A stretch of 43,811 bases of DNA from a virus: the IMG/VR virus record IMGVR_UViG_3300025115_000023, positions 1-43,811 of that record. One strand, 5' to 3'. Positions 5,583-43,811 of the stretch are shown here, piece after piece (positions within the stretch are counted from its first letter, which is position 1; each line of letters starts with the position of its first letter). The notes under the pieces were generated by a model. That model searched no databases. It was given only the letters and a program-made list of their open reading frames with translations, and was not told the origin of the DNA. A program made the position numbers and the translations under genes.

Positions 5583-5623
5583 GTTGTCTGCGGGCTTTTC
5601 GCAGGTAACGCAAACCGTTGGGC
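5530..5623. repeat. attC-like imperfect palindrome (integron cassette recombination site candidate)
   Basis: Ends are GCCCAAC (5530-5536) and GTTGGGC (5617-5623), fitting the R boxes RYYYAAC and GTTRRRY of integron attC sites. Inside, GCGT/ACGC and ACCTG/CAGGT pair, separated by unequal numbers of unpaired bases. Then come CGAAAAGCCCG/CGGGCTTTTCG (11 bp) and CAG/CTG, with bulged A (5551) and T (5563) on one side only. Total length is 94 bp. Position at the 3' end of a single gene, overlapping its stop, is where attC sits in gene cassettes. No matching left boundary was found. Confidence 0.5.
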
Positions 5624-5645
5624 GGCTCGTGCAAAAGGAGTAGAA

Positions 5646-5816
5646 ATGCAATTGAAAATAGTTTGCCACGTTTGCAATAGTGAGTTGAGAGTTTTGAGCG
5701 TACAGCATAACGAAAAAATAACAGGGTGCCATATCTTTGTACCCCCGTGTTCAAAGTGCGCCGCCCAATTTTGGTATAGTGCCCGTATATCGTGGATACG
5801 GCGATACTTTTGGTGA
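5646..5816 (+). CDS. Small zinc-ribbon-like protein (56 aa)
   Basis: ATG with AAAAGGAGTAGAA upstream. Two Cys pairs, CHVC at residues 7-10 and CSKC at 35-38, spaced as in a single zinc ribbon, and an aromatic basic C-terminus (WIRRYFW). It follows the attC-like site by 22 bases and could be in a second cassette or belong to the phage backbone. Likely binds nucleic acid or a protein partner; precise role unknown. Confidence 0.65.
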   Translation: MQLKIVCHVCNSELRVLSVQHNEKITGCHIFVPPCSKCAAQFWYSARISWIRRYFW

Positions 5817-5869
5817 AGCGATTGCGCAATGTCTTATTCTTGCTAGCCAAAAAGAAAAGGAGTTGAAAA

Positions 5870-9302: not shown

Positions 9303-9320
9303 AAAAAAAGGAGTTGTAAA

Positions 9321-9467
9321 ATGGTTGACGAAGTTGAAACAGAGGTTGATGAATTAGAAGAAGAAGTTAACGATGAACTAGAAGAGGAAGATGAGGAAGA
9401 CGAAGAGGAAGAGGAGGAAGACGAGGAACTAGACGAAGACGAAGAAGATGAAGAAGACGAAGACTAA
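9321..9467 (+). CDS. 48-aa extremely acidic peptide
   Basis: ATG with AAAAGGAGTTGTAAA upstream, a clear ribosome site. Of 48 residues 38 are Asp or Glu, and there is no Lys, Arg, His or aromatic residue; the others are Met, Val, Leu, Thr and Asn, with hydrophobic residues spaced in the first 20 positions. Codons for Glu and Asp are mixed, so this is not a simple trinucleotide expansion. Placed right after the SSB-like gene it might act as a DNA mimic or as a detached acidic tail that binds replication or recombination partners. This is inference only. Confidence 0.65.
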   Translation: MVDEVETEVDELEEEVNDELEEEDEEDEEEEEEDEELDEDEEDEEDED

Positions 9468-9519
9468 CTAAAATAAGAGCCTGCCGGCGGGCCTTATACA
9501 CCGGCAAGGAGAATTTAAC

Positions 9520-13524: not shown

Positions 13525-15162
13525 ATGCTTAATTATGCTTTGGCGTATTTAGAAAAAGGTTGGTCAGTTATACCTGTAAAACCCGATAAGCGGCCTTACA
13601 TTAGGTGGTCCAAATATCAAAAAACAAAACCTACAAAAGAAGAAGTTACTGATTGGTGGACGCAATGGCCTACAGCTAATATCGCTGTAGTTACAGGCAA
13701 AGTTTCTAATCTGTTGGTAGTAGATATAGATGGCCCAACAGATTTAACATTACCTGCAACACTTGTGTCTAAGACAGGAGGTGGCGGTAGGCACTACTTT
13801 TACAGCACCGATGAAGTTTTACCAAACGCGGTGCGTATAGCTAAAAATGTAGATATCCGAGCAGAAGGCGGCTATGTGATTATACCGCCTAGTATTCATG
13901 CTTCGGGAAAAGCCTACACTTGGAACAATAAAAATACACCTGCTACCTGTCCAAGCAGTATTAAAAGAAAACTGTTAGATAAAGTAGTTGCTGTAGGGAC
14001 ACGTAACGACTCATTGGCTACTCTTGTAGGACGCTTATTACGTACCGGACTAGATGAAAATGTAATTATCGATACAGCTTTAAGCTGGAATGTAAAGAAT
14101 TGTAGCCCCCCTCTAAAAGAAGATGAAGTGATTACGACTGTTCGTTCTGTTATAAAAACAGATAGCCGTAATCATCCAAAAAAAGCTAAGGAAGAGAATT
14201 TCAATGTTGTAGATTTCAAGACAGTTGCTAGCCGTTATTCAGAAGGCCCGCAGTGGGATATTGAAGATTGGCTACCTAAATCAACATTGGGTCTGGTTGT
14301 AGCGCCCCCAGGTACTTTTAAAACTTGGGTGCTATTAGACTTAGCGCTATCCATTGCTACTGGAAAAAAGTTTTTAGATAGCGTACCTGTATTAGATACG
14401 GGCAAAGTTCTAATTATTCAACAAGAAGACCCGTTTCCATTGTTGATATCTAGGATAACTCAAATACTAAAATTGAAAGAACCTGACGACTACTCTTTTC
14501 AAGCTCCTCCCGACCTGTCTAACATAGTTTGGCATACCGACAGAGTGCTGAACTTTGCTAACCAATCAGCCGTAGACGGCCTGTGTGATTATGTAGTTAA
14601 GAATAAAACAAAACTCATAATCATAGATCCGTTATACTCTGTAATTGAGACAGATGATTACATGGCAAAAGGCGCGCAACATATGTTGATTTTCAAACAG
14701 TTGCGCGACAAGTATGGTGTATCGTTTATGATAGCACACCATACTAAAAAGAGGGTTGATAATGTACGAAGCAGGGATGATGCGTGGGGAAGCCAGTTTC
14801 TAAATGCTTGGCTTGAGACTGGCTGGCAAATTCGTCCTATGACAGATATGACTTCAAGTGTTTATTTTCATAGACACTTTAAATCATCAGGCACAGTAAA
14901 ACCTGTCACTCTAGAATTCGATATTACAGAGGATGCATACAATGTAACTATCGAACAGGGTGTAGACATTGTTAGAGTGGACGATAAACTTGCTAAGCTG
15001 GTGGAGATCATTACGAAGAACAAAATAAAAACTGTTCGCGAAGCCGTTACTTTGTTAGGTGAAGGTAACCCAGGAACAGTTAATAGATTGTTAAAAGCGG
15101 TCGGGGCAGTTAAGGGGGAAGACGGGTACTACACGATTGTGAAATACGATAGCTTTGTCTAA
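13525..15162 (+). CDS. Bifunctional primase-polymerase / RepA-type helicase
   Basis: 545 residues in three parts. Residues 1-140 are a Prim-Pol domain with VVDIDG (Asp67, Asp69), GGGGRHYFYS (His90) and NVDIRAEGGYVIIPPS. Residues about 155-212 resemble the PriCT helical linker (RNDSLATLVGRLLR). Residues from 240 form a RecA-fold ATPase of the RepA/AAA_25 group, with Walker A APPGTFKT at 260-267, Walker B LIIIDPL and a MIAHHTKK segment. One protein thus primes and unwinds, completing the replisome. Start has GGAGAAGTAAT upstream. The stop overlaps the stop of the convergent tail gene. Confidence 0.9.
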   Translation: MLNYALAYLEKGWSVIPVKPDKRPYIRWSKYQKTKPTKEEVTDWWTQWPTANIAVVTGKVSNLLVVDIDGPTDLTLPATLVSKTGGGGRHYFYSTDEVLPNAVRIAKNVDIRAEGGYVIIPPSIHASGKAYTWNNKNTPATCPSSIKRKLLDKVVAVGTRNDSLATLVGRLLRTGLDENVIIDTALSWNVKNCSPPLKEDEVITTVRSVIKTDSRNHPKKAKEENFNVVDFKTVASRYSEGPQWDIEDWLPKSTLGLVVAPPGTFKTWVLLDLALSIATGKKFLDSVPVLDTGKVLIIQQEDPFPLLISRITQILKLKEPDDYSFQAPPDLSNIVWHTDRVLNFANQSAVDGLCDYVVKNKTKLIIIDPLYSVIETDDYMAKGAQHMLIFKQLRDKYGVSFMIAHHTKKRVDNVRSRDDAWGSQFLNAWLETGWQIRPMTDMTSSVYFHRHFKSSGTVKPVTLEFDITEDAYNVTIEQGVDIVRVDDKLAKLVEIITKNKIKTVREAVTLLGEGNPGTVNRLLKAVGAVKGEDGYYTIVKYDSFV

Positions 15163-31686: not shown

Positions 31687-31970
31687 TAGTATAATCCTAT
31701 AATACCGGTAGCGGCTGTACCTGTAGCATACACTCGTTTTACTCTAACTGGAAGAACACCTAGCGGAGCATTACCAAAAGTAACTGTATCGCCTGCCCAT
31801 GTAGTTACTTTTACATCTCCTGGGGAACCGATATACAACGCTAATGCCCAAACTGGTAAATCTACACCATCGTTTGGTGTAACAGCGTAAGCATGAGCGG
31901 GGGGATCAACAAAGCTGTTATTACCTAGTGGTCTATCTGGATAAGGAAAGGTGTATTGAGGGGAGTTTAT
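31686..31970 (-). CDS. Spike base protein (RCAP_Rcc01079-like), no canonical start codon
   Basis: The frame is open from a TGA at 31982 to a TAA that overlaps the next ATG. The product, with LGNNSFVDPPAHAYAVTP, ALALYIGSPGDVKV and VLPVRVKRVYATGT, has the pattern of the small spike base protein first described in Rhodobacter gene transfer agent. No ATG, GTG or TTG exists in frame before the middle of the gene. ATA at 31970, seven bases after GAGG, is used here as the left limit; an ATG at 31983 would reach the frame only by a +1 shift at CCC-T. A one-base sequencing error is also possible. Confidence 0.6.
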   Translation of the reverse strand: MNSPQYTFPYPDRPLGNNSFVDPPAHAYAVTPNDGVDLPVWALALYIGSPGDVKVTTWAGDTVTFGNAPLGVLPVRVKRVYATGTAATGIIGLY

Positions 31971-31981
31971 AACCTCCCCTC
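31958..31981. repeat. Perfect hairpin over the start region of the spike base gene
   Basis: GAGGGGAG (31958-31965) and CTCCCCTC (31974-31981) pair perfectly around an eight-base loop. On the coding strand the 5' arm contains the ribosome-binding sequence GGGGAGG, so the hairpin would hide it. No T-run follows. Confidence 0.65.
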
Positions 31982-31994
31982 ATATTGCTACAAA

Positions 31995-35205: not shown

Positions 35206-36493
35206 TTAAAGCTCTTTTCAAAAAGTCTTTGGCTGACGCTTCCAAATTGTTTATATCTACGGTTGGCTTAACGTTGTTATTTTCCGAAGGCGTCTTTCGC
35301 AATTCATCCCCATCAGGGACAGGGGCATAATCTGCCAACAGACGGGCTTCGTTAGGAGTTAAGAAAGGCCCTCCACAAGAATTTACAAGCATCTTGAACA
35401 AATCTTCTCGTGCATCCTGCATCGCTTTTACATCTGTATAGTCCCAACCTAACTTATAGTTATAAGTATCGCTCTCAAATTCAGCTAGAATTTGAGCGTC
35501 GAGTTGAGGACCTATACGCCGATGCAGTGGTAGCAAACAAGATTTATAAGCTGCCGCGTGTGCTTCTTTATAGTTACTGTAAGTTTTACTGGAACTGGGT
35601 AACCCTACTACCATAGGATCAATGCCCCAAACTCCGCAAATCCTACTAACAGGTATATCTCGAATTTTATCTAACACCAACTGTTCAGGCGACATCCCAG
35701 GTGTTGCTATATCCACAGGTATACTCTGTACAAAAACACCACCCACATTATCCCCAGCTATTTCTTCCTGCCACCTCTGCTTAAACAATTCTCTTTGCTG
35801 TGCAGAAAGTTCATCCATTTTTTCTTTCGGCGAAACGATTGCACTCGGCACACCGAAATTTCGTAATATGGTAGCTGAAAACGTAGCCGCTTCGTTCTCT
35901 GTACAAACTTCCCGTAGAACCGCATTAAGGTAATTTATACCTCTTCTTTGATTTGTTGGATCGAGCCCCATTCGTAAATGTACGACGTCCTCAACAGGGT
36001 ACTTTATAGACTTACCATCAGGCTTGTACTCATAGTAATCTATAAAGTTATCGTTTCTCCAACGTGGTGAAATCAAATAGTGCGGTACGTAAACTACTCC
36101 TATCATCTTACCTGCGGCAGATCTTACTTTAACCCAGTAGGCTTCGCCACCTATTTTTAGGGACAGGATGGTACCAGCCCACAAAGTAGGTTCATCATAA
36201 TAAGCACACGGTTTACTAAGGAACCTGTTTATCTGGTGTTCGTAATCTACGAACATCTTATTATTTTCTCCTCTTCGTCTTACACAAAGAGGAGCTTCTG
36301 ACCATGTGTCGCAAGTCCATCTTAGACAGGCGGCCACTATGCTATTTTCCCATAGCAATCCAGCCTCTGCCCTATAGTCATATTGGGTCCCAGGCAGAGT
36401 TCTTAGCCCATAGCCCCAAAAATCGTTATAAGGCCCAAGCCCTGAGCCTGAGAATACGTGCTTTATTCTTTTAACTAAACTAATCAAGCCCAT
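35195..36493 (-). CDS. Portal protein
   Basis: 432 residues from MGLISLVKRIKHVF; frame upstream to 36523 lies within the terminase gene and is rejected. Features of the lambda/HK97-type portal family: RWTCDTWSEAPLCV, YYEYKPDGKSI, EDVVHLRMG, NEAATFSATILRNFG, and a C-terminal helix region with LTPNEARLLADYAPV, the wing-clip segment ending LTPNE common in portals. Forms the dodecameric DNA gate. Overlaps the terminase gene by ten bases. Confidence 0.92.
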   Translation of the reverse strand: MGLISLVKRIKHVFSGSGLGPYNDFWGYGLRTLPGTQYDYRAEAGLLWENSIVAACLRWTCDTWSEAPLCVRRRGENNKMFVDYEHQINRFLSKPCAYYDEPTLWAGTILSLKIGGEAYWVKVRSAAGKMIGVVYVPHYLISPRWRNDNFIDYYEYKPDGKSIKYPVEDVVHLRMGLDPTNQRRGINYLNAVLREVCTENEAATFSATILRNFGVPSAIVSPKEKMDELSAQQRELFKQRWQEEIAGDNVGGVFVQSIPVDIATPGMSPEQLVLDKIRDIPVSRICGVWGIDPMVVGLPSSSKTYSNYKEAHAAAYKSCLLPLHRRIGPQLDAQILAEFESDTYNYKLGWDYTDVKAMQDAREDLFKMLVNSCGGPFLTPNEARLLADYAPVPDGDELRKTPSENNNVKPTVDINNLEASAKDFLKRALNGA

Positions 36494-37929
36494 TCCCAAA
36501 CTCTCGTCCCACGATAGTAGCACAAATTTAATGCGTCTACATCGTCAGGACTTCGCCCTAACCTTGATTTTGTTCTATCTTTTGGTTCTACTACCCGCCT
36601 ACCTTGACTATCTACAGTATATTTAGGCGCCATTATCTGCTGTCTGATAGCTTCTTTTGCTTCTGCCGGCAACCTGCTTAAATCTACAGCCCCGTGCATA
36701 GCCTTTTCAGCTACATAAAACCATGCTTCACTTCTTTTATTAGGGTACCCACTAGGGTTAATAGCTCTAGACCCTGCGGAAACCCCAAGGAATTTGTAAT
36801 CTCCTTTTTGATCTATCACTCCGCCGCCCACACCGTCATCGTCTATTTTTACTTCTACCTTTTCCGGTGTGCTAGATACCATCCGAGCTATTTCTTTCAA
36901 CCTATTAGCTACCAAGCTAGTGCTCCATCCATTATGTGTTTCATAATGTATAGCACATGACCCTTGCCGAGCTATTATGGTTGTATAGTCGTCGCCGTAT
37001 CTAGCTACGTCACAACCTATTTCTATAACCCCATCTTCAGGTATAGGCTGTGGCTCGTTAGCTTTTTTCCATGCGTCTTCTGTCCAAACTGTATCTGTCC
37101 CTAGCGTCGGCCATCTTCCTAAAACTCTACTTTCAAAAAGAGGGCCTGGCCGATAAATTAAACCGTTCCATTCAAAATCGCCAAGTAAGCGGTCTTCGAC
37201 AGGGACAGGATCACACCATCTTTCTATACATTCCTCTACCCAGTTTAAAGTAACTGCCCCAGGAAATGGGGCTTCCTTACCTTTCTTAGCTTGGGTAATA
37301 TTAGGGTGATCGAGGGCAGATACTGTTATTGTATGGAATTTACCTTGGAGTTCTTCTTTATAAATAAAAGAAGATGGGTCCGTGGGGTTACAAATGGACA
37401 ACCAATAACAGTTTTCATTCAAAGCCATGCCGTAGGCAGCTTGCCAAAACTCAGGAGCTATGCCTACACATTCATCAAACGCTATAAAAACATGACAGCT
37501 GTGTCGGCCTTGAAAACTTTCAGCGTCTCTAGCTGTATAACCTACTGCAAAATGATCATCTGCGTCCTTCATTTTAGGTGCAGAAGGATACAAGCCCCCT
37601 GTCAGATTAGCCGCTTTAGCTTGTACTCTTATTTCTTTCCACAAAACTTCTTCGACTTGTGCAGCTGTAGGCGCTGTAGTTAAAATAACACAGGGCCGAA
37701 ACGAGTGGTAAAACCACAGGACAAGGCCAGCCATTACATGGGTCTTTCCCACACCGTGCGAGGCCTTAACAAAAACCCTTTTATGCTTGATTAAAGCATT
37801 GGCTATTTCTTTTTGTTTATACCACCAGCGTATTCCGAGCACATTGTGTGCAAAACCTACTGGATTATTGGGATACTGGCTCGCCACCAATTGCGACGTC
37901 AACCCCCTCTTCAGAAGGGTCTGTAGCAT
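36484..37929 (-). CDS. Terminase large subunit (ATPase-nuclease)
   Basis: Packaging motor. From the chosen start (MLQTLLKRGLTS) 481 residues: Walker A KASHGVGKTH about 55-64, Walker B FIAFDE with Asp152-Glu153, nuclease acidic residues at IGCDVARYGDD (Asp307 region), KIDDDGVGGG, and GRSPDDVDAL. GGAAGAGAAGG precedes this ATG; an ATG at 37998 gives 23 more residues but overlaps the small subunit gene by 134 bases. Both starts remain possible. Confidence 0.93.
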   Translation of the reverse strand: MLQTLLKRGLTSQLVASQYPNNPVGFAHNVLGIRWWYKQKEIANALIKHKRVFVKASHGVGKTHVMAGLVLWFYHSFRPCVILTTAPTAAQVEEVLWKEIRVQAKAANLTGGLYPSAPKMKDADDHFAVGYTARDAESFQGRHSCHVFIAFDECVGIAPEFWQAAYGMALNENCYWLSICNPTDPSSFIYKEELQGKFHTITVSALDHPNITQAKKGKEAPFPGAVTLNWVEECIERWCDPVPVEDRLLGDFEWNGLIYRPGPLFESRVLGRWPTLGTDTVWTEDAWKKANEPQPIPEDGVIEIGCDVARYGDDYTTIIARQGSCAIHYETHNGWSTSLVANRLKEIARMVSSTPEKVEVKIDDDGVGGGVIDQKGDYKFLGVSAGSRAINPSGYPNKRSEAWFYVAEKAMHGAVDLSRLPAEAKEAIRQQIMAPKYTVDSQGRRVVEPKDRTKSRLGRSPDDVDALNLCYYRGTRVWEWA

Positions 37930-38347
37930 TACCTTCTCTTCCGAAGATAAGTTTTCTGGCTTGCTCCAACAACTCTCCATCTGTAAGTTTGTCAACATAG
38001 TGGTTCACTTCTATAGGTTTATCCAAACCTAAAAGTCGTCTACGACTTTCGGACAGGCGGAGCCAGAGAGTAGCGGCATCCATGTCGCCATTATCTAATG
38101 CTTCGTTTAGAAACCTTTGAAGTTTATCTAAACGCTCTAGCTCTAACTGTCGGAAATCCTCTGCGGCCCAAGTCGTTATTTCTCTAATCTCCTTTAATCT
38201 AGAGGAGATTATAGAAGAGACGGCTGGCTCTGACATATCAACTTCTGCAGCTATCTGCGCAAGTGTGGCACCTTCTACCCGCATTTTTAATGCGGTTAAA
38301 GTTCTCTGAAGATGCGTTAATTTATTAGAGTTGTTTACGAGGGGCAT
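37865..38347 (-). CDS. Terminase small subunit
   Basis: 160 residues. A helix-turn-helix lies at residues about 27-50 (GATLAQIAAEVDMSEPAVSSII), followed by long helices (LERLDKLQRFLNEALDN) for oligomer formation and an acidic tail. Binds the packaging site and hands DNA to the large subunit. First gene of the leftward late operon; AAGGAGTAAAAGGTC lies upstream of the ATG. Confidence 0.88.
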   Translation of the reverse strand: MPLVNNSNKLTHLQRTLTALKMRVEGATLAQIAAEVDMSEPAVSSIISSRLKEIREITTWAAEDFRQLELERLDKLQRFLNEALDNGDMDAATLWLRLSESRRRLLGLDKPIEVNHYVDKLTDGELLEQARKLIFGREGNATDPSEEGVDVAIGGEPVSQ

Positions 38348-38384
38348 GACCTTTTACTCCTTCGTTAGCTATAATGGTACTGTA

Positions 38385-38407
38385 TCTATAGGTGTGACGT
38401 CTATAGG
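38385..38407. promoter_or_regulatory. Direct repeat TCTATAGG upstream of the late operon
   Basis: TCTATAGG occurs at 38385-38392 and 38400-38407, starts 15 bp apart, in the 100 bases before the terminase small subunit gene. On the leftward strand each reads CCTATAGA. They may be operators or alternative -10 elements of the late promoter; no good -35 is placed at the right distance. Confidence 0.35.
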
Positions 38408-38520
38408 AGGGGAAGGTATTTTCAAGGGGGCTACGGAGTTAAGGATTATCTAAAAAATAATGCGCGATTTTTTGGGGGGTGCTGCTTCATTTTTGGGTTT
38501 TTTGGTTTGGGTCCCATACT

Positions 38521-38614
38521 CAATTGCAATTGAGGCTTTGACTTTTTGGTTTCAATTGTAATTGGATTTATCCTCCAATTGTAATTGGATAGACTTCCTA
38601 TTAAATTGCAATTG
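38521..38614. repeat. Four palindromic CAATTGYAATTG repeats
   Basis: CAATTGCAATTG at 38521, CAATTGTAATTG at 38553 and 38576, and AAATTGCAATTG at 38603, with spacings of 32, 23 and 27 bp. Each is a full or near palindrome of two CAATTG halves. They lie between the divergent late and early operons, so they look like binding sites of a regulator or replication initiator. Confidence 0.75.
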
Positions 38615-38624
38615 ACTTCAGGTA

Positions 38625-38676
38625 GTAGACATCCTTCTGTGCAAAGGGAGGGGAATTCGCACAGAGGAGTGTCTAC
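38625..38676. repeat. Two-part hairpin in the divergent region
   Basis: Outer arms GTAGACA (38625-38631) and TGTCTAC (38670-38676) and inner arms TCTGTGC (38636-38642) and GCACAGA (38659-38665) are all exact complements and nested, with CC/GG pairs between. Apical loop is 16 bases. Confidence 0.6.
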
Positions 38677-38760
38677 CTGTTGAGCGTGCAAAAAAGTACA
38701 TATGTCGGGTAGTTTCCTTTGGTTTGGATATGCTACCATTAGTCATAGTCAAATAATCAA

Positions 38761-38794
38761 AACCGAACAGTCAAAAAAATGAACTGTTTCGGTT
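38761..38794. repeat. Hairpin AACCGAACAGT
   Basis: AACCGAACAGT (38761-38771) pairs with ACTGTTTCGGTT (38783-38794) over 11 positions with one bulged T, around an 11-base A-rich loop. No T-run follows, so it is not a classical terminator. Confidence 0.55.
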
Positions 38795-38820
38795 CCGTTG
38801 TCAATTCCTTGAAAAACGAA

Positions 38821-38873
38821 TAGTCTACCGGCGAACCGAAACTAGTTCCTAGTCGGTTAGACTACTCTATAAT
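38821..38873 (+). promoter_or_regulatory. Rightward early promoter with overlapping palindrome
   Basis: TATAAT at 38868-38873 forms a consensus -10; the -35 region (GTTCCT at 38845) is weak, suggesting activator dependence. Just upstream, TAGTCTA-CCG (38821) and CGG-T-TAGACTA (to 38864) form an interrupted palindrome with a small ACTAG-TTC-CTAGT palindrome inside, overlapping the -35 area: a likely operator. Confidence 0.55.
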
Positions 38874-38874
38874 G

Positions 38875-38942
38875 TTCGCGCCCGAAAGACGCGAATACGG
38901 CGTATCACAAGGTACGCCGAAGCATAGGAGCATAAACCTATG
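38875..38942 (+). promoter_or_regulatory. Leader with three consecutive hairpins, last one covering the start codon
   Basis: TTCGCG/CGCGAA (38875-38880 with 38890-38895), CGGCGTA/TACGCCG (38898-38904 with 38913-38919) and CATAGG/CCTATG (38923-38928 with 38937-38942) are perfect arms. The last stem pairs part of the Shine-Dalgarno AGGAG with the ATG at 38940. This suggests control of translation of the first early gene. Confidence 0.5.
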
Positions 38943-39296
38943 TTGACACTCAACGAAGTCCTAAGGGTCGCAAAACGTGCCGATGGCACGGAATGGGAAG
39001 TCTCAATGCGACCCGAGAATGGCGGGTACGTCGTAGTCATCAACGAAGCGGAGTTTACTAACGTTGCCGATGCTCTAGCGTTGATTTCCACCGTCAAACC
39101 TATCGAGCGTGATAATTCGAACACGCTCGAAGCACGGCGCATTGCACGACGTGCGATTGACGAAGCGGTCTATGCCCTTCCGAAGGATACGGAGGAAGTG
39201 GTAATCCGCAAGCTTGCGAAATATGCGCTCATGTTCGCTCCCGCTTCGGAGAAACCCGAACCGAAGAAGCGAACGCGCAAAGAACCCGCCGCGTAG
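38940..39296 (+). CDS. Hypothetical protein (118 aa), first gene after the divergent region
   Basis: ATG preceded by AGGAG ten bases upstream. Begins MLTLNEVLRVAKRADGTEWEVSM; mixed alpha/beta with a helical middle (LEARRIARRAIDEAVYAL) and a strongly basic C-terminus (KPEPKKRTRKEPAA), which suggests nucleic-acid binding. Codon use is richer in C and G at third positions than in the replication and late genes, a sign of separate origin. Function unknown. Confidence 0.65.
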   Translation: MLTLNEVLRVAKRADGTEWEVSMRPENGGYVVVINEAEFTNVADALALISTVKPIERDNSNTLEARRIARRAIDEAVYALPKDTEEVVIRKLAKYALMFAPASEKPEPKKRTRKEPAA

Positions 39297-39382
39297 CACC
39301 TACCCGAAGCGTCGTTACCAGAGTAGTGATTAACCGTTGACACTGCGGACCGAAGCCTACCTCTCCCGAAAGGAATAGCAGA

Positions 39383-39616
39383 ATGTCAAGACGTGATGCA
39401 TATCGCTCAGGCAAGCGTGTAGGCCGTAAGGCTTACGGTACAGACAACGCACAAGGTATCCATGATGCTCTAGTCGAATCACGCAGTCTAGATGGTAGTA
39501 AGACTCGGGCCAATCTTCTGCAAGCATTCCACGACGGATTCCTCGAAGGTTTGGACTTGCAAGGTAAGGTAACCTTCCGAAGTCGGTGGAATAAGATCGG
39601 GAACTACTCGCAGTAA
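39383..39616 (+). CDS. Hypothetical basic protein (77 aa)
   Basis: ATG with CGAAAGGAATAGCAGA upstream. MSRRDAYRSGKRVGRKAYG gives a strongly basic N-terminus; the rest is helical (ANLLQAFHDGFLEGL). The preceding 86-base gap holds no gene. Same G+C-rich codon use as its two neighbours. Function unknown. Confidence 0.6.
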   Translation: MSRRDAYRSGKRVGRKAYGTDNAQGIHDALVESRSLDGSKTRANLLQAFHDGFLEGLDLQGKVTFRSRWNKIGNYSQ

Positions 39617-39643
39617 CTCGTACCTAGGAGAGGAGTAGGCACA

Positions 39644-39850
39644 ATGCCACTAGGCACACGTTGTACGTATGATCCCACAGTACCGGAACTCCACAGAGAA
39701 CTCATGGAGTTCTGGTGGTCTAACGACGTGCAAGTACTGGAATGGTCTGCCGGAAGTTATGGCCATTCCACAGAGTGCACGTGTTGGCATTGCCGCGCCC
39801 TTGAAGAGACACGACGGAGAGGGTTCTGCAACGTTCCGGCAACCGACTGA
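39644..39850 (+). CDS. Hypothetical Cys-containing protein (68 aa)
   Basis: ATG with GAGAGGAGTAGGCACA upstream. The sequence contains STECTCWHCRALEE, a C-x-C-x2-C plus a further C near the end, so metal binding is possible; overall mixed charge with Trp-rich segment FWWSNDVQVLEW. Ends nine bases before the terminator. Function unknown. Confidence 0.6.
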   Translation: MPLGTRCTYDPTVPELHRELMEFWWSNDVQVLEWSAGSYGHSTECTCWHCRALEETRRRGFCNVPATD

Positions 39851-39858
39851 CACTCTAG

Positions 39859-39895
39859 AGCGTTCGAACAGCGCACCGTTCGGACGCTTTTTCTT
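39859..39895 (+). terminator. Rho-independent terminator of the first early operon
   Basis: AGCGTTCGAAC (39859-39869) pairs with GTTCGGACGCT (39878-39888) over 11 positions with one G-U, closing an eight-base loop, followed by TTTTTCTTT. It ends the three-gene unit that begins at 38940. Confidence 0.9.
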
Positions 39896-40019
39896 TATCT
39901 TAAAAGTGGATATCTTTATCTGCTTTTAAGTTTTTAAGCGGACGAACGCGCGTTTTATTAGTCTACTAAGTCTACTATTCAATGGTAGACAAGCGTCCGA
40001 AGCTAATTTCGGCGCATAG

Positions 40020-40125
40020 ACGCTCTAGACAGAGGAGAGTAGCTACATAGCTAAAAGTGCCCTTCGCTTGTGTCCATGGCAAGGAAGGGCATTTACGGGC
40101 ACCGTAGCTACAACGGCTAGAGCGT
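40020..40125. ncRNA. Large nested hairpin, candidate structured RNA
   Basis: Three nested perfect stems: ACGCTCTAG/CTAGAGCGT (40020-40028 with 40117-40125), GTAGCTAC/GTAGCTAC (40039-40046 with 40104-40111) and TGCCCTTC/GAAGGGCA (40058-40065 with 40084-40091), the last continued by CTTG/CAAG to a nine-base loop. Internal loops are 5-12 bases per side. No promoter is evident directly upstream, so transcription from either strand is unproven; it could instead act as DNA. Confidence 0.5.
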
Positions 40126-40175
40126 GGATTGACAGTCTACGCTCATGGCCTAGTCTACTAGTTCCGAAGCGCTCC

Positions 40176-40225
40176 TGAAGCGTTCCCAAGGGTTCATGAA
40201 GCGTTCCCAAGGGTTCATGAAGCGT
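40176..40225 (+). repeat. 21-bp tandem direct repeat
   Basis: Two exact 21-bp units (40176-40196 and 40197-40217), each starting TGAAGCGTTCCC, followed by eight bases of a third. The core GAAGCG also recurs several times between 40160 and 40340. Confidence 0.9.
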
Positions 40226-40240
40226 GTCACAAAGAACGCC

Positions 40241-40260
40241 GAAGCGTAACGTTACGCTTC
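40241..40260. repeat. 20-bp perfect palindrome
   Basis: GAAGCGTAAC followed directly by GTTACGCTTC. As DNA it is an ideal site for a symmetric protein dimer; as RNA it is a hairpin without loop bases. Confidence 0.9.
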
Positions 40261-40380
40261 TGAAGGAACAGGTACCGGAAGTGTTCCTAGAGGAACGCCG
40301 AAGCGTACCGGAAGAGACAGGTACCGAAGCGTTCCTGTAAAGACAGAGACAGGTACAAACAGAATAGACTTTCCCATTCC

Positions 40381-40420
40381 TTTATAAAATGTCTCAGGTA
40401 ACATTGAGACATTCTATAAA
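40381..40420. repeat. Long hairpin (15 pairs in 16)
   Basis: TTTATA-A-AATGTCTCA (40381-40396) pairs with TGAGACATT-C-TATAAA (40405-40420) with one mismatch, closing the loop GGTAACAT. No T-run follows. Confidence 0.8.
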
Positions 40421-40457
40421 CGAATGAAGGAAGTTCCTTTACTGTTTGACTTAGAAA

Positions 40458-40537
40458 AGTCAATTCGATTGACTCAAAAAAGTCAATTCGATTGACTTAG
40501 AAAAGTCAATCCGATTGACTCAAAAAAAGTCAATCGG
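40458..40537. repeat. 23-bp iterons with internal hairpin AGTCAATTCGATTGACT
   Basis: AGTCAAT-TCG-ATTGACT at 40458-40474 and 40481-40497, AGTCAAT-CCG-ATTGACT at 40504-40520, and half a unit at 40528-40537. Unit starts are 23, 23 and 24 bp apart, with A-rich linkers of two alternating kinds. Iterons of this size are typical binding sites of replication or partition proteins. Confidence 0.85.
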
Positions 40538-40568
40538 GAGCGGGTAGATAAAAAGCAGAGTCTGAGAA

Positions 40569-40609
40569 GGCCTGTTTTAGGTGAGAAGGGTTATTTTGTA
40601 AAACAGGCC
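40569..40609. repeat. 11-bp perfect inverted repeat
   Basis: GGCCTGTTTTA (40569-40579) and TAAAACAGGCC (40599-40609) around a 19-base loop. Confidence 0.8.
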
Positions 40610-40615
40610 GGTTTT

Positions 40616-40639
40616 GAAGTGGATTGCATAGTCCACTTC
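40616..40639. repeat. 8-bp perfect inverted repeat
   Basis: GAAGTGGA (40616-40623) and TCCACTTC (40632-40639) around an eight-base loop, seven bases after the preceding hairpin. Confidence 0.7.
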
Positions 40640-40665
40640 TTGTACGTACAGAGTGGACAGGTACT

Positions 40666-40707
40666 GTACGGCGTACAAAGACCCCGAAGGGGTCTTGTAC
40701 GCTGTAC
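40666..40707. repeat. Long GTAC-rich hairpin
   Basis: GACCCC-GAA-GGGGTC forms the tip; GCGTACAA/TTGTACGC continues it past one bulged A, and GTAC/GTAC closes it past a G-T. Flanking DNA from 40639 to 40740 has many more TGTAC and GTACA copies. No T-run follows. Confidence 0.75.
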
Positions 40708-40816
40708 GCTTGTACAGACCCACGAGTTGTACGGACGTACAGATATCTTTGTCCGGATTTAGGTTTTAGACAGGCGTCTACTAGCGTTAAAAAAAGAAAG
40801 AAAGAGGCTCCTAAGA

Positions 40817-41299
40817 ATGATAAAGAAAGTAGGGAATGAGCCGAAAGTGTCCTTGTCTAGCGCGCCCATGGGGCATATTTCTATGTCGCCAACACATATA
40901 AAGTCTACAGATTTCGCAGATTATATCCGCGAACAAAAACTCATGCCTCTCTTCTCCTACTATTGGGAGAAGGAAGGCTACGACGTTATGTACATAGATA
41001 TAAGGCACTCTGGTCCAATTTTTGTTTCAGAAGAGGAATGGGCCATTGTAAACAAAGAAACCGTCGCTGATTTTGCACGCTGTAAAGAGGGCTTCGCTAA
41101 GATACGCGCCCTCCTATGTCTTCGCCTGTTGCAATTGAGGTATTCCGCAATACCTGGAACATTCTCCCCCTGTCCCAATAAGAGGGTTTGCGCCGGTTTA
41201 GCATTAGATTTGTTAATCCGAAAAGAAGTAAAATCCATGCCGAGCAAGGAGGTTCTACAATTTGCCCAAAAATGGGCGCATTTGTTGTTAAACGATTAG
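40817..41299 (+). CDS. Hypothetical protein (160 aa)
   Basis: ATG with AAAGAGGCTCCTAAGA upstream, first gene after the gene-free region. No membrane segment; helical C-terminal half (LCLRLLQLRY..., PSKEVLQFAQKWAHLLL) and a Cys pair around CPNKRVC. The upstream frame from 40624 runs through hairpins and is not counted. Function unknown. Confidence 0.65.
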   Translation: MIKKVGNEPKVSLSSAPMGHISMSPTHIKSTDFADYIREQKLMPLFSYYWEKEGYDVMYIDIRHSGPIFVSEEEWAIVNKETVADFARCKEGFAKIRALLCLRLLQLRYSAIPGTFSPCPNKRVCAGLALDLLIRKEVKSMPSKEVLQFAQKWAHLLLND

Positions 41300-41312
41300 A
41301 AAGGAAAAAAAC

Positions 41313-41465
41313 ATGAAGTGGGTATTAGCTACCGTTCTAGGTTGGACCGTTTTCCTTTGGGCCATGCAGTATAGAGCCCAACCTTATTCATGGGCCATAA
41401 ACCTCCTGTCCGTCGTTTTTCTGGTTGTGTTCTGTTACACAATACGTGACAAAAAGGAGAAGTAA
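41313..41465 (+). CDS. Small two-helix membrane protein (50 aa)
   Basis: ATG with AGAAAGGAAAAAAAC upstream. Two hydrophobic segments, residues 3-18 (WVLATVLGWTVFLWAM) and about 27-43 (WAINLLSVVFLVVFCYT), separated by a short polar loop, and a charged end IRDKKEK. Topology would place the charged tail in the cytoplasm. Early position argues against a lysis role; function unknown. Confidence 0.6.
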   Translation: MKWVLATVLGWTVFLWAMQYRAQPYSWAINLLSVVFLVVFCYTIRDKKEK

Positions 41466-41468
41466 AAA

Positions 41469-41561
41469 ATGCTAGGTAAAAAAGAAGTAACCGTACAACA
41501 GAAGAAAACAAAAAAGAACAAAAAGGCCCAGAAGGCCAGAAAGGCTAATAAGAAATGGTAG
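41469..41561 (+). CDS. 30-aa highly basic peptide
   Basis: ATG with AAAAAGGAGAAGTAAAAA upstream. About half of the 30 residues are Lys or Arg, mainly in the second half, and there is no acidic residue beyond one Glu. It overlaps the next gene by seven bases. It could bind nucleic acids; whether it is translated as a functional peptide is uncertain. Confidence 0.5.
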   Translation: MLGKKEVTVQQKKTKKNKKAQKARKANKKW

Positions 41562-42802: not shown

Positions 42803-43567
42803 ATGAAGTTCCATACAGAAGGTTATGGAAAGCCAGAACCCGGAATTGACGTGAAAGTTCCAAATTTCGGTACCGGATTGAAGTACGAGGAGGGGGATCT
42901 TATCTACGCCTTCGACGAATTGCAAAAAGAGTTTTGGGACGAAGCGCAAACGTTGACGGTAGAAACGTTTTCTCTCGCTACTTCCGTAGTTTCGAAGGGC
43001 AGATCCGGCGGTTGGCTTACAGTTAATGGTTTGCCAGATTTAAGCGTATGGAGCGAGAATGACTACCGATTGTGGGAACTTTTCGAAATGCGGATAGACA
43101 CTCTGCTTCGGGAGAAGACACGCAGAGACACAATCAAGGAACGGATAAATGCTGGTCCTGTCCTTGAACGCTTTTTTGCAAGTGTCCCAGAGTGTAAGTT
43201 GATTCGCGCTTTGCGCGATGTTTTTCCAATGGCACTCAAGTATGATGGCCTGAATACGGCTATAACTGATGCTATAGGATGTGACGGCAAAATAGGGTAT
43301 CTGTTTGAGGCTTTGAAGTTTCAGATATTCGATACTAACCAGTACGTATGCGATAACAGAAGTCGACCTATAAGCGGGGTAATGGGAGATCCCTACCGTG
43401 AACTGTATACACAATGGGCGCCCTCAGAAGTAGAAACGACGTATTATGCTCACTCCTCCCTGTCCCAAGACGTAGTAGGCGGGCTTCGTTTCCGAATTGA
43501 AAGAGATATCGCTAATGGTATAATATGCTGCTATAGCCCGTATGAAGTATTGGCGATGCTTGTCTAG
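42803..43567 (+). CDS. Hypothetical protein (254 aa), complete right-hand paralog
   Basis: ATG with GGGGAGGAGAAAAAG upstream. The N-terminal 95 residues (MKFHTEGYGKPEPGIDVKV...) are seen only here, because the left copy is cut. Residues 99-254 match the left copy with many conserved blocks. Mixed alpha/beta; no motif, signal peptide or membrane segment recognised. The Trp-rich stretch SVWSENDYRLWELFEMR precedes the shared part. Confidence 0.75.
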   Translation: MKFHTEGYGKPEPGIDVKVPNFGTGLKYEEGDLIYAFDELQKEFWDEAQTLTVETFSLATSVVSKGRSGGWLTVNGLPDLSVWSENDYRLWELFEMRIDTLLREKTRRDTIKERINAGPVLERFFASVPECKLIRALRDVFPMALKYDGLNTAITDAIGCDGKIGYLFEALKFQIFDTNQYVCDNRSRPISGVMGDPYRELYTQWAPSEVETTYYAHSSLSQDVVGGLRFRIERDIANGIICCYSPYEVLAMLV

Positions 43568-43604
43568 TTCCTGTAAATCGTAATCCTCAGGGGTACGTAG
43601 GGAA
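43568..43604 (+). promoter_or_regulatory. Bulged RNA hairpin element, copy 3
   Basis: TTCCTG with TAGGGAA as outer stem (a G-U where copy 1 has A-U), TAAAT bulge (43574-43578), CGTA/TACG stem, bulged A, and a shorter TCC/GGG tip with a four-base loop. It precedes the same purine-rich ribosome site as copy 1. Confidence 0.55.
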
Positions 43605-43626
43605 AAAGGAAAAAGGAAAAACAGAA

Positions 43627-43781: not shown

Positions 43782-43811
43782 ATGGAAAGTATACAAGTCA
43801 CACTACGGAAG
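43782..43811 (+). CDS. Start of a second copy of the 164-aa protein (truncated by the window end)
   Basis: Ten codons MESIQVTLRK are present, identical in protein sequence to the start of the gene at 685 and preceded by the same AAGAAAGGAAAACAAG ribosome site. The rest is outside the window. Confidence 0.6.
   Translation, partial: MESIQVTLRK

Follow-up and report, generated by a model that had tools for sequence, protein, structure and literature searches.

The origin of PLE, a phage-inducible chromosomal island-like element, is a non-coding region in which semi-palindromic iterons converge on a poly-A tract (PMC7145576). A stem-loop is proposed as the PrimPol origin of pRN1, and in RSF1010 iterons are combined with ssi stem-loops (PMC4234260). 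For phages with the widespread PolA / Sak4-like / PD-(D/E)XK / SNF2 / PrimPol-AAA_25 module, we found no mapped origin. The window analysed here, an IMG/VR virus record of 43,811 bases, encodes such a module and contains a gene-free stretch dense in hairpins and iterons (Table 1). We tentatively read this stretch, at somewhat less than even probability, as the replication origin, or a region controlling replication, of a phage genome that is probably complete and circular (or circularly permuted); it provides a compact, testable origin candidate for phages with the PolA/Sak4-like/PrimPol-AAA_25 module.

The record probably represents an entire genome, circular or circularly permuted, since a 165-aa ORF preceded by a ribosome-binding-like site reads in frame across both ends, from an ATG at 43782 to a stop at 468. 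Identical GGAAAAA x3 repeats are present on the two sides of the join (505-525 and 43601-43621). The leftward arm, from 38.35 kb, carries the late genes, with a putative terS (37865-38347, so named for its position and an HTH-like match only), terL (36484-37998), portal and major capsid. The rightward arm carries the early genes from 38.94 kb through the contig ends up to the point of convergence of the arms at 15.16 kb, and includes at 7-15 kb a replication module composed of a PD-(D/E)XK nuclease, a Sak4-like ATPase, an SNF2 helicase, a family A polymerase (PolA) and a Prim-Pol+PriCT_1+AAA_25 protein. The stretch sits 0.9 kb into the rightward arm of this divergent early/late layout, and its neighbouring genes all lie on the + strand. 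AlphaFold models of 40817-41299 and 42803-43567 from single sequences were unusable (pLDDT 38 and 30). The [G + C] content reaches about 49-59% at 39000-39850 and 40000-40350 versus 42% genome-wide, which suggests a separate acquisition of the small gene unit at 39000-39850 and the iteron block.

As the initial annotation had proposed, the stretch harbors no credible gene between a 68-aa ORF that ends at 39850 and a 160-aa ORF that starts at 40817. Its own small ORFs look spurious; the largest of them, of 71 aa with a TTG start, overlaps the gene that follows. The many perfect inverted repeats that it had reported are also borne out. Taking as perfect hairpins those with arms of at least 8 and a loop of at most 20, 39850-40816 contains 10 non-overlapping ones (13 in all), against 0.22 +- 0.45 (maximum 2) in 200 dinucleotide shuffles of the stretch and a genome-wide mean of 1.3 per 921 bp, and the top windows of the genome all fall inside it. 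When mismatches are allowed, the count is 11 versus 0.67 +- 0.70 in shuffles. The claim that the arms differ in sequence holds for the single hairpins and fails for the 23-bp array and the TGTAC-rich part (40641-40740), each of which is one half-site repeated.

The stretch is also the densest when set against about 2.2 Mb of other viral loci, where the maximum is 8 perfect hairpins per 967 bp, in coding DNA. In two related viral contigs, L016 (555-2197) and L017 with its homologue, protein-coding genes are unusually rich in perfect hairpins, at 8 and 7 per 967 bp respectively, and pairing is only partly kept between them (50 pairs the same, 1 double change, 4 G-U, 11 broken). Despite the similar count, we rejected them as comparable loci, the hairpins lying in coding sequence and being partly broken between the two. 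A short intergenic cluster of AT-rich AGCTATAGCT-like hairpins is present in a further phage, whose polymerase is distantly related (L139, 280-430). No homologue of the stretch was found in INPHARED, PLSDB, IMG/VR or GTDB, collections that may lack near records, and neither a distant blastn search against phages and plasmids, nor searches of IMG/VR and GTDB genomes for the exact array patterns, nor the proteins of the neighbouring genes searched in phages and IMG/VR led to a relative of it. Terminase relatives in IMG/VR reach at best 41-57% identity (those checked mostly have 50-68% GC), the replication module has one relative (L004/L149, 30-48% identity), and none of the relatives of either kind has a hairpin-dense gap. 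Scans of PrimPol alignments gave no close relative, and Serbin, Gibbous, MW202455, vir555 and MW202444, which have a distantly similar replication module or primase, have no such stretch.

Known elements processed identically have far fewer perfect hairpins: the 840-nt gap holding ROOL has a folding z of -5.9 and 0 perfect hairpins, RNase P -1.3 and 0, P4 ori -2.3 and 1, P4 crr -3.1 and -4.2 and 2, and the M13 intergenic region -6.2 and 2. Since neither the large RNAs nor the origins among these yardsticks reach the density of the stretch, density alone cannot choose between an RNA and an origin.

Table 1. Features of the hairpin-dense stretch and related elements of the window (coordinates of the window)
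Feature	Position	Strand	Measure
Whole hairpin- and iteron-dense gene-free region	39850..40816	.	Perfect-hairpin counts and RNA folding z
Strand-biased folded part, better on + than -	39850..40160	+	Nested long-range helices and hairpins
Rho-independent terminator of the 38940-39850 gene unit	39857..39890	+	13 bp stem, T-run
Second hairpin, AT-rich, 14 bp, 4-nt loop, then TTTTT	39899..39930	+	
Long hairpin, GTAGCTAC...GTAGCTAC closing AAGTGCCCTTC/GAAGGGCATTT	40039..40112	+	
21-bp tandem repeat, iteron-like, 3.1 copies, GC-rich, two-helical-turn spacing	40161..40225	.	Score 102
GAAGCGT motif cluster, 7 copies (8 in rest of genome)	40166..40332	.	
20-bp perfect palindrome GAAGCGTAACGTTACGCTTC	40241..40260	.	
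AT-rich, locally least stable tract, candidate unwinding element	40350..40500	.	2.6-3.7 percentile of the window in duplex stability
22-bp-arm hairpin, 91% complementary (2 mismatches), 8-nt loop; longest near-perfect hairpin	40375..40426	.	
23-bp tandem array, 3.8 copies, 46-bp super-period	40446..40534	.	Score 134
11-bp perfect hairpin GGCCTGTTTTA...TAAAACAGGCC	40569..40609	.	
8-bp perfect hairpin GAAGTGGA...TCCACTTC	40616..40639	.	
TGTAC half-site cluster with hairpin GTACGGCGTACAAAGACCCC/GGGGTCTTGTACGCTGTAC	40641..40742	.	
Further intergenic region rich in hairpins, where the late (-) and early (+) arms diverge	38348..38939	.	
Candidate origin-acting replication protein, Prim-Pol + PriCT_1 + AAA_25 (RepA-like helicase)	13525..15162	+	

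The strong terminator, the 20-bp palindrome, the 21-bp tandem repeat and the 23-bp iteron array described in the initial annotation are all present (Table 1), the latter two being the best-scoring tandem arrays of the genome. Among the functions it had listed (a replication origin, a packaging site or structured RNAs), an origin fits best, because the stretch combines two iteron arrays, an AT-rich tract of low stability and strand-symmetric palindromes, and lies close to where the two arms diverge. From left to right, GC-rich iterons (the 21-bp block, at about the 95th percentile of duplex stability) adjoin the AT-rich tract, which is followed by the second array; non-coding tandem direct repeats spaced by about two helical turns and an adjoining, easily melted AT-rich tract are what characterizes iteron-type origins. 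In the 23-bp array, TTGACT and AGTCAA half-sites alternate around an A-rich centre, which is the layout of RepA_N iterons, with inverted sub-repeats on poly-A (as defined in PMC7145576). Despite the matching layout, we do not assign the stretch to the RepA_N iteron origins because no RepA_N protein is encoded: PF06970 matches nothing in the genome at E<=10, and the same search also responded in five control genomes, with nothing over the cut-off.

Other observations weigh against an origin. The stretch contains no DnaA box, no cognate iteron initiator was recognised among the neighbouring proteins, which match no family, and the replication genes at 7-15 kb are not adjacent. It lies close to the GC-skew minimum, but this minimum is 1.5-2.4 kb to the left and is equally explained by gene direction. 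The hairpin density is atypical of known origins, as P4 ori/crr and the M13 intergenic region have only 1-2 perfect hairpins. The lack of such a stretch in the genomes with a distantly similar replication module or primase, and of any homologue that would show conservation, counts against an origin too. We propose that an initiator would bind the 21-bp iterons and/or the A-tract semi-palindromic 23-bp array, that the least stable tract between and over the arrays would open, and that the PrimPol-RepA-like helicase of the phage would load. Hairpins exposed on the unwound strands could then provide priming or assembly sites, by analogy with ssiA/ssiB in RSF1010 or the pRN1 stem-loop, and replication would start inside the stretch.

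The alternative that survives best, though on balance an unlikely one, is a large structured RNA in the style of GOLLD and ROOL, about 300-850 nt long and transcribed rightward, which would stand alone or serve as leader of the 40817 gene; the orientation of the neighbouring genes agrees with it. Folding of both strands against shuffles, suggested in the initial annotation, indicates structure far beyond chance on each. The RNA minimum free energy z on the + strand is -20.5 (20 shuffles), -13.8 (30 shuffles) or -11.3 (base-pair span limited to 150), a value that varies with shuffle sampling while the excess itself does not, and on the - strand it is about -10 to -14. All four sub-blocks are significant on the + strand. 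Among 200-nt windows the stretch is one of the strongest but is not alone: those at 13601, 36401 and 38601 score similarly (-6 to -7), and we therefore based no proof on individual local windows.

The left third also speaks for an RNA: parts of 39850-40160 have strand-difference z values of -3.3 to -5.0 (-4.2 to -5.0 for 39896-40160), more negative than in any of 55 background windows, which range from -1.9 to 3.5. There, helices pair 39854-39863 with 40020-40029 (10 perfect bases) and, nested, 39879-39889 with 39991-40001 (11), giving the terminator arms second partners downstream, and these pairings exceed those in shuffles. Mismatches in near-perfect hairpins read on the + strand are 6 G.T versus 1 A.C, a small count. 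Given this mismatch pattern and the strand differences, the left third resembles a single + strand that folds, and the remainder double-stranded palindromes: blocks of 40161-40760 have strand-difference z values of -1.4 to +2.1, the symmetry expected of DNA palindromes. The structured RNAs of the initial annotation are thereby retained for the left third only. This symmetry of the right two thirds argues against a large RNA, as do the absence of an Rfam match at gathering threshold (with none creditable at E<=10), the failure of the ROOL and GOLLD models to match anywhere in the genome (the ROOL model does work on L. salivarius pMP118), the much weaker z and lack of perfect hairpins of ROOL and RNase P under the same folding, and the direct-repeat arrays, a feature not known from RNAs of this kind. 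Moreover, a simple scan found no sigma-70-like promoter just after the terminator. The strand bias could also reflect folded single-stranded DNA, because the only yardstick with a comparable bias (z -3.6) is half of the M13 intergenic region, which is an element of single-stranded DNA. A structured RNA confined to the left third is likely enough to count as a serious rival or as a co-existing part, and the control region may give rise to the + strand-biased segment as a transcript acting as leader, primer or regulator. If the stretch is an RNA, it would represent a new large phage RNA class.

It is doubtful that the stretch is instead an early transcription-control region, in which palindromic operator arrays for phage regulators and terminators would lie between two early units. 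The half-site arrays ATTGACT/AGTCAAT, TGTAC and GAAGCGT, the terminator that opens the stretch and the 7-3-7 layout of AGTCAATTCGATTGACT, which the 17-bp dyad repeats in mycobacteriophages of Cluster O also have (PMC4351075), are consistent with such a role. On the other hand, most hairpins have unrelated arms and therefore no single regulator explains all of them, nearly 1 kb is large for an operator region, and the sigma-70 scan gave no promoter inside the stretch. A similar palindrome-rich gap between the divergent arms (38348-38939) also speaks for transcription control. The folding z of this gap is about -7 (close to -6.7 on each strand), and it contains a hairpin with 21-bp arms (38625-38676) as well as four palindromes resembling CAATTGYAATTG (38517-38616). 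The hairpin-rich character that the initial annotation had described for the stretch also extends to this second region, and is absent from most other gaps, which have little or no folding excess (some small ones around -4).

A DNA packaging site (pac/cos) or a recombination/resolution site is improbable. Hairpins are present in some packaging signals, for example that of M13, and 1.5 kb leftward of the stretch is the start of the putative terS/terL operon; however, 38348-38939 has its own palindrome array directly upstream of terS, a more usual place, and is the better candidate for an operator or packaging region, while no integrase or resolvase was found beside the stretch. Phages rarely keep 2% of unused DNA, and the gaps at 5583-5869, 9303-9519, 31687-31994 and 41300-41554 show no excess, both of which count against neutral accumulation of palindromes. 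Perfect arms with unrelated sequences do fit local template switching in unconstrained DNA (quasipalindrome mutation, a mechanism mentioned in PMC3820800), and we regard this as the least probable explanation.

Returning to the replication origin or control region, a broader version of it would fuse the origin-like block (two iteron arrays and the AT-rich tract) to a + strand structured RNA domain, with the unrelated perfect hairpins as priming sites for the PrimPol-RepA-like helicase on both strands. Such a new type of phage control element is a speculative and rather improbable extension. If the hairpins are priming sites, phage PrimPol replication would be linked to the mechanisms of RSF1010 and pRN1.

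Among described systems, GOLLD and ROOL resemble the stretch in being large, heavily folded non-coding phage segments (PMC12286853), but it matches neither model, its hairpins are perfect and mostly strand-symmetric, and it is not beside the only tRNA of the genome. The 23-bp array recalls the Cluster O dyads through its 7-3-7 dyad AGTCAAT-TCG-ATTGACT, clustered here in one array whereas the 30+ copies of Cluster O are spread over the genome (PMC4351075). Similarly to the phage, pRN1 and BIP-1 encode a PrimPol-helicase replication protein on the same element, with a large stem-loop proposed as the origin (PMC4234260). In pRN1, the helicase is of the SF3 type and one 100-nt stem-loop directly follows the replication gene, without iterons, whereas the phage has an AAA_25 helicase, many hairpins and iterons, at about 18 kb from the PrimPol gene on the circle; no stem-loop of the pRN1 kind lies at the 3' end of that gene, which ends at 15162 and overlaps a convergent gene. 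RSF1010 (IncQ) oriV with ssiA/ssiB shares with the phage iterons, hairpins, a RepA-like helicase and a primase (PMC4234260), a likeness at the level of description, and differs in that no RepC-like iteron binder was identified in the phage, where primase and helicase are fused. Finally, the PLE origin is, like the stretch, non-coding, with several repeat families near divergent operons (PMC7145576) and direct repeats, each a semi-palindrome, that converge on an A-tract, although its RepA_N initiator was not found here, the repeats differ in sequence and in the length of their arms (6-7 bp within a 23-bp unit in the phage), and the dense extra hairpins set the stretch apart.
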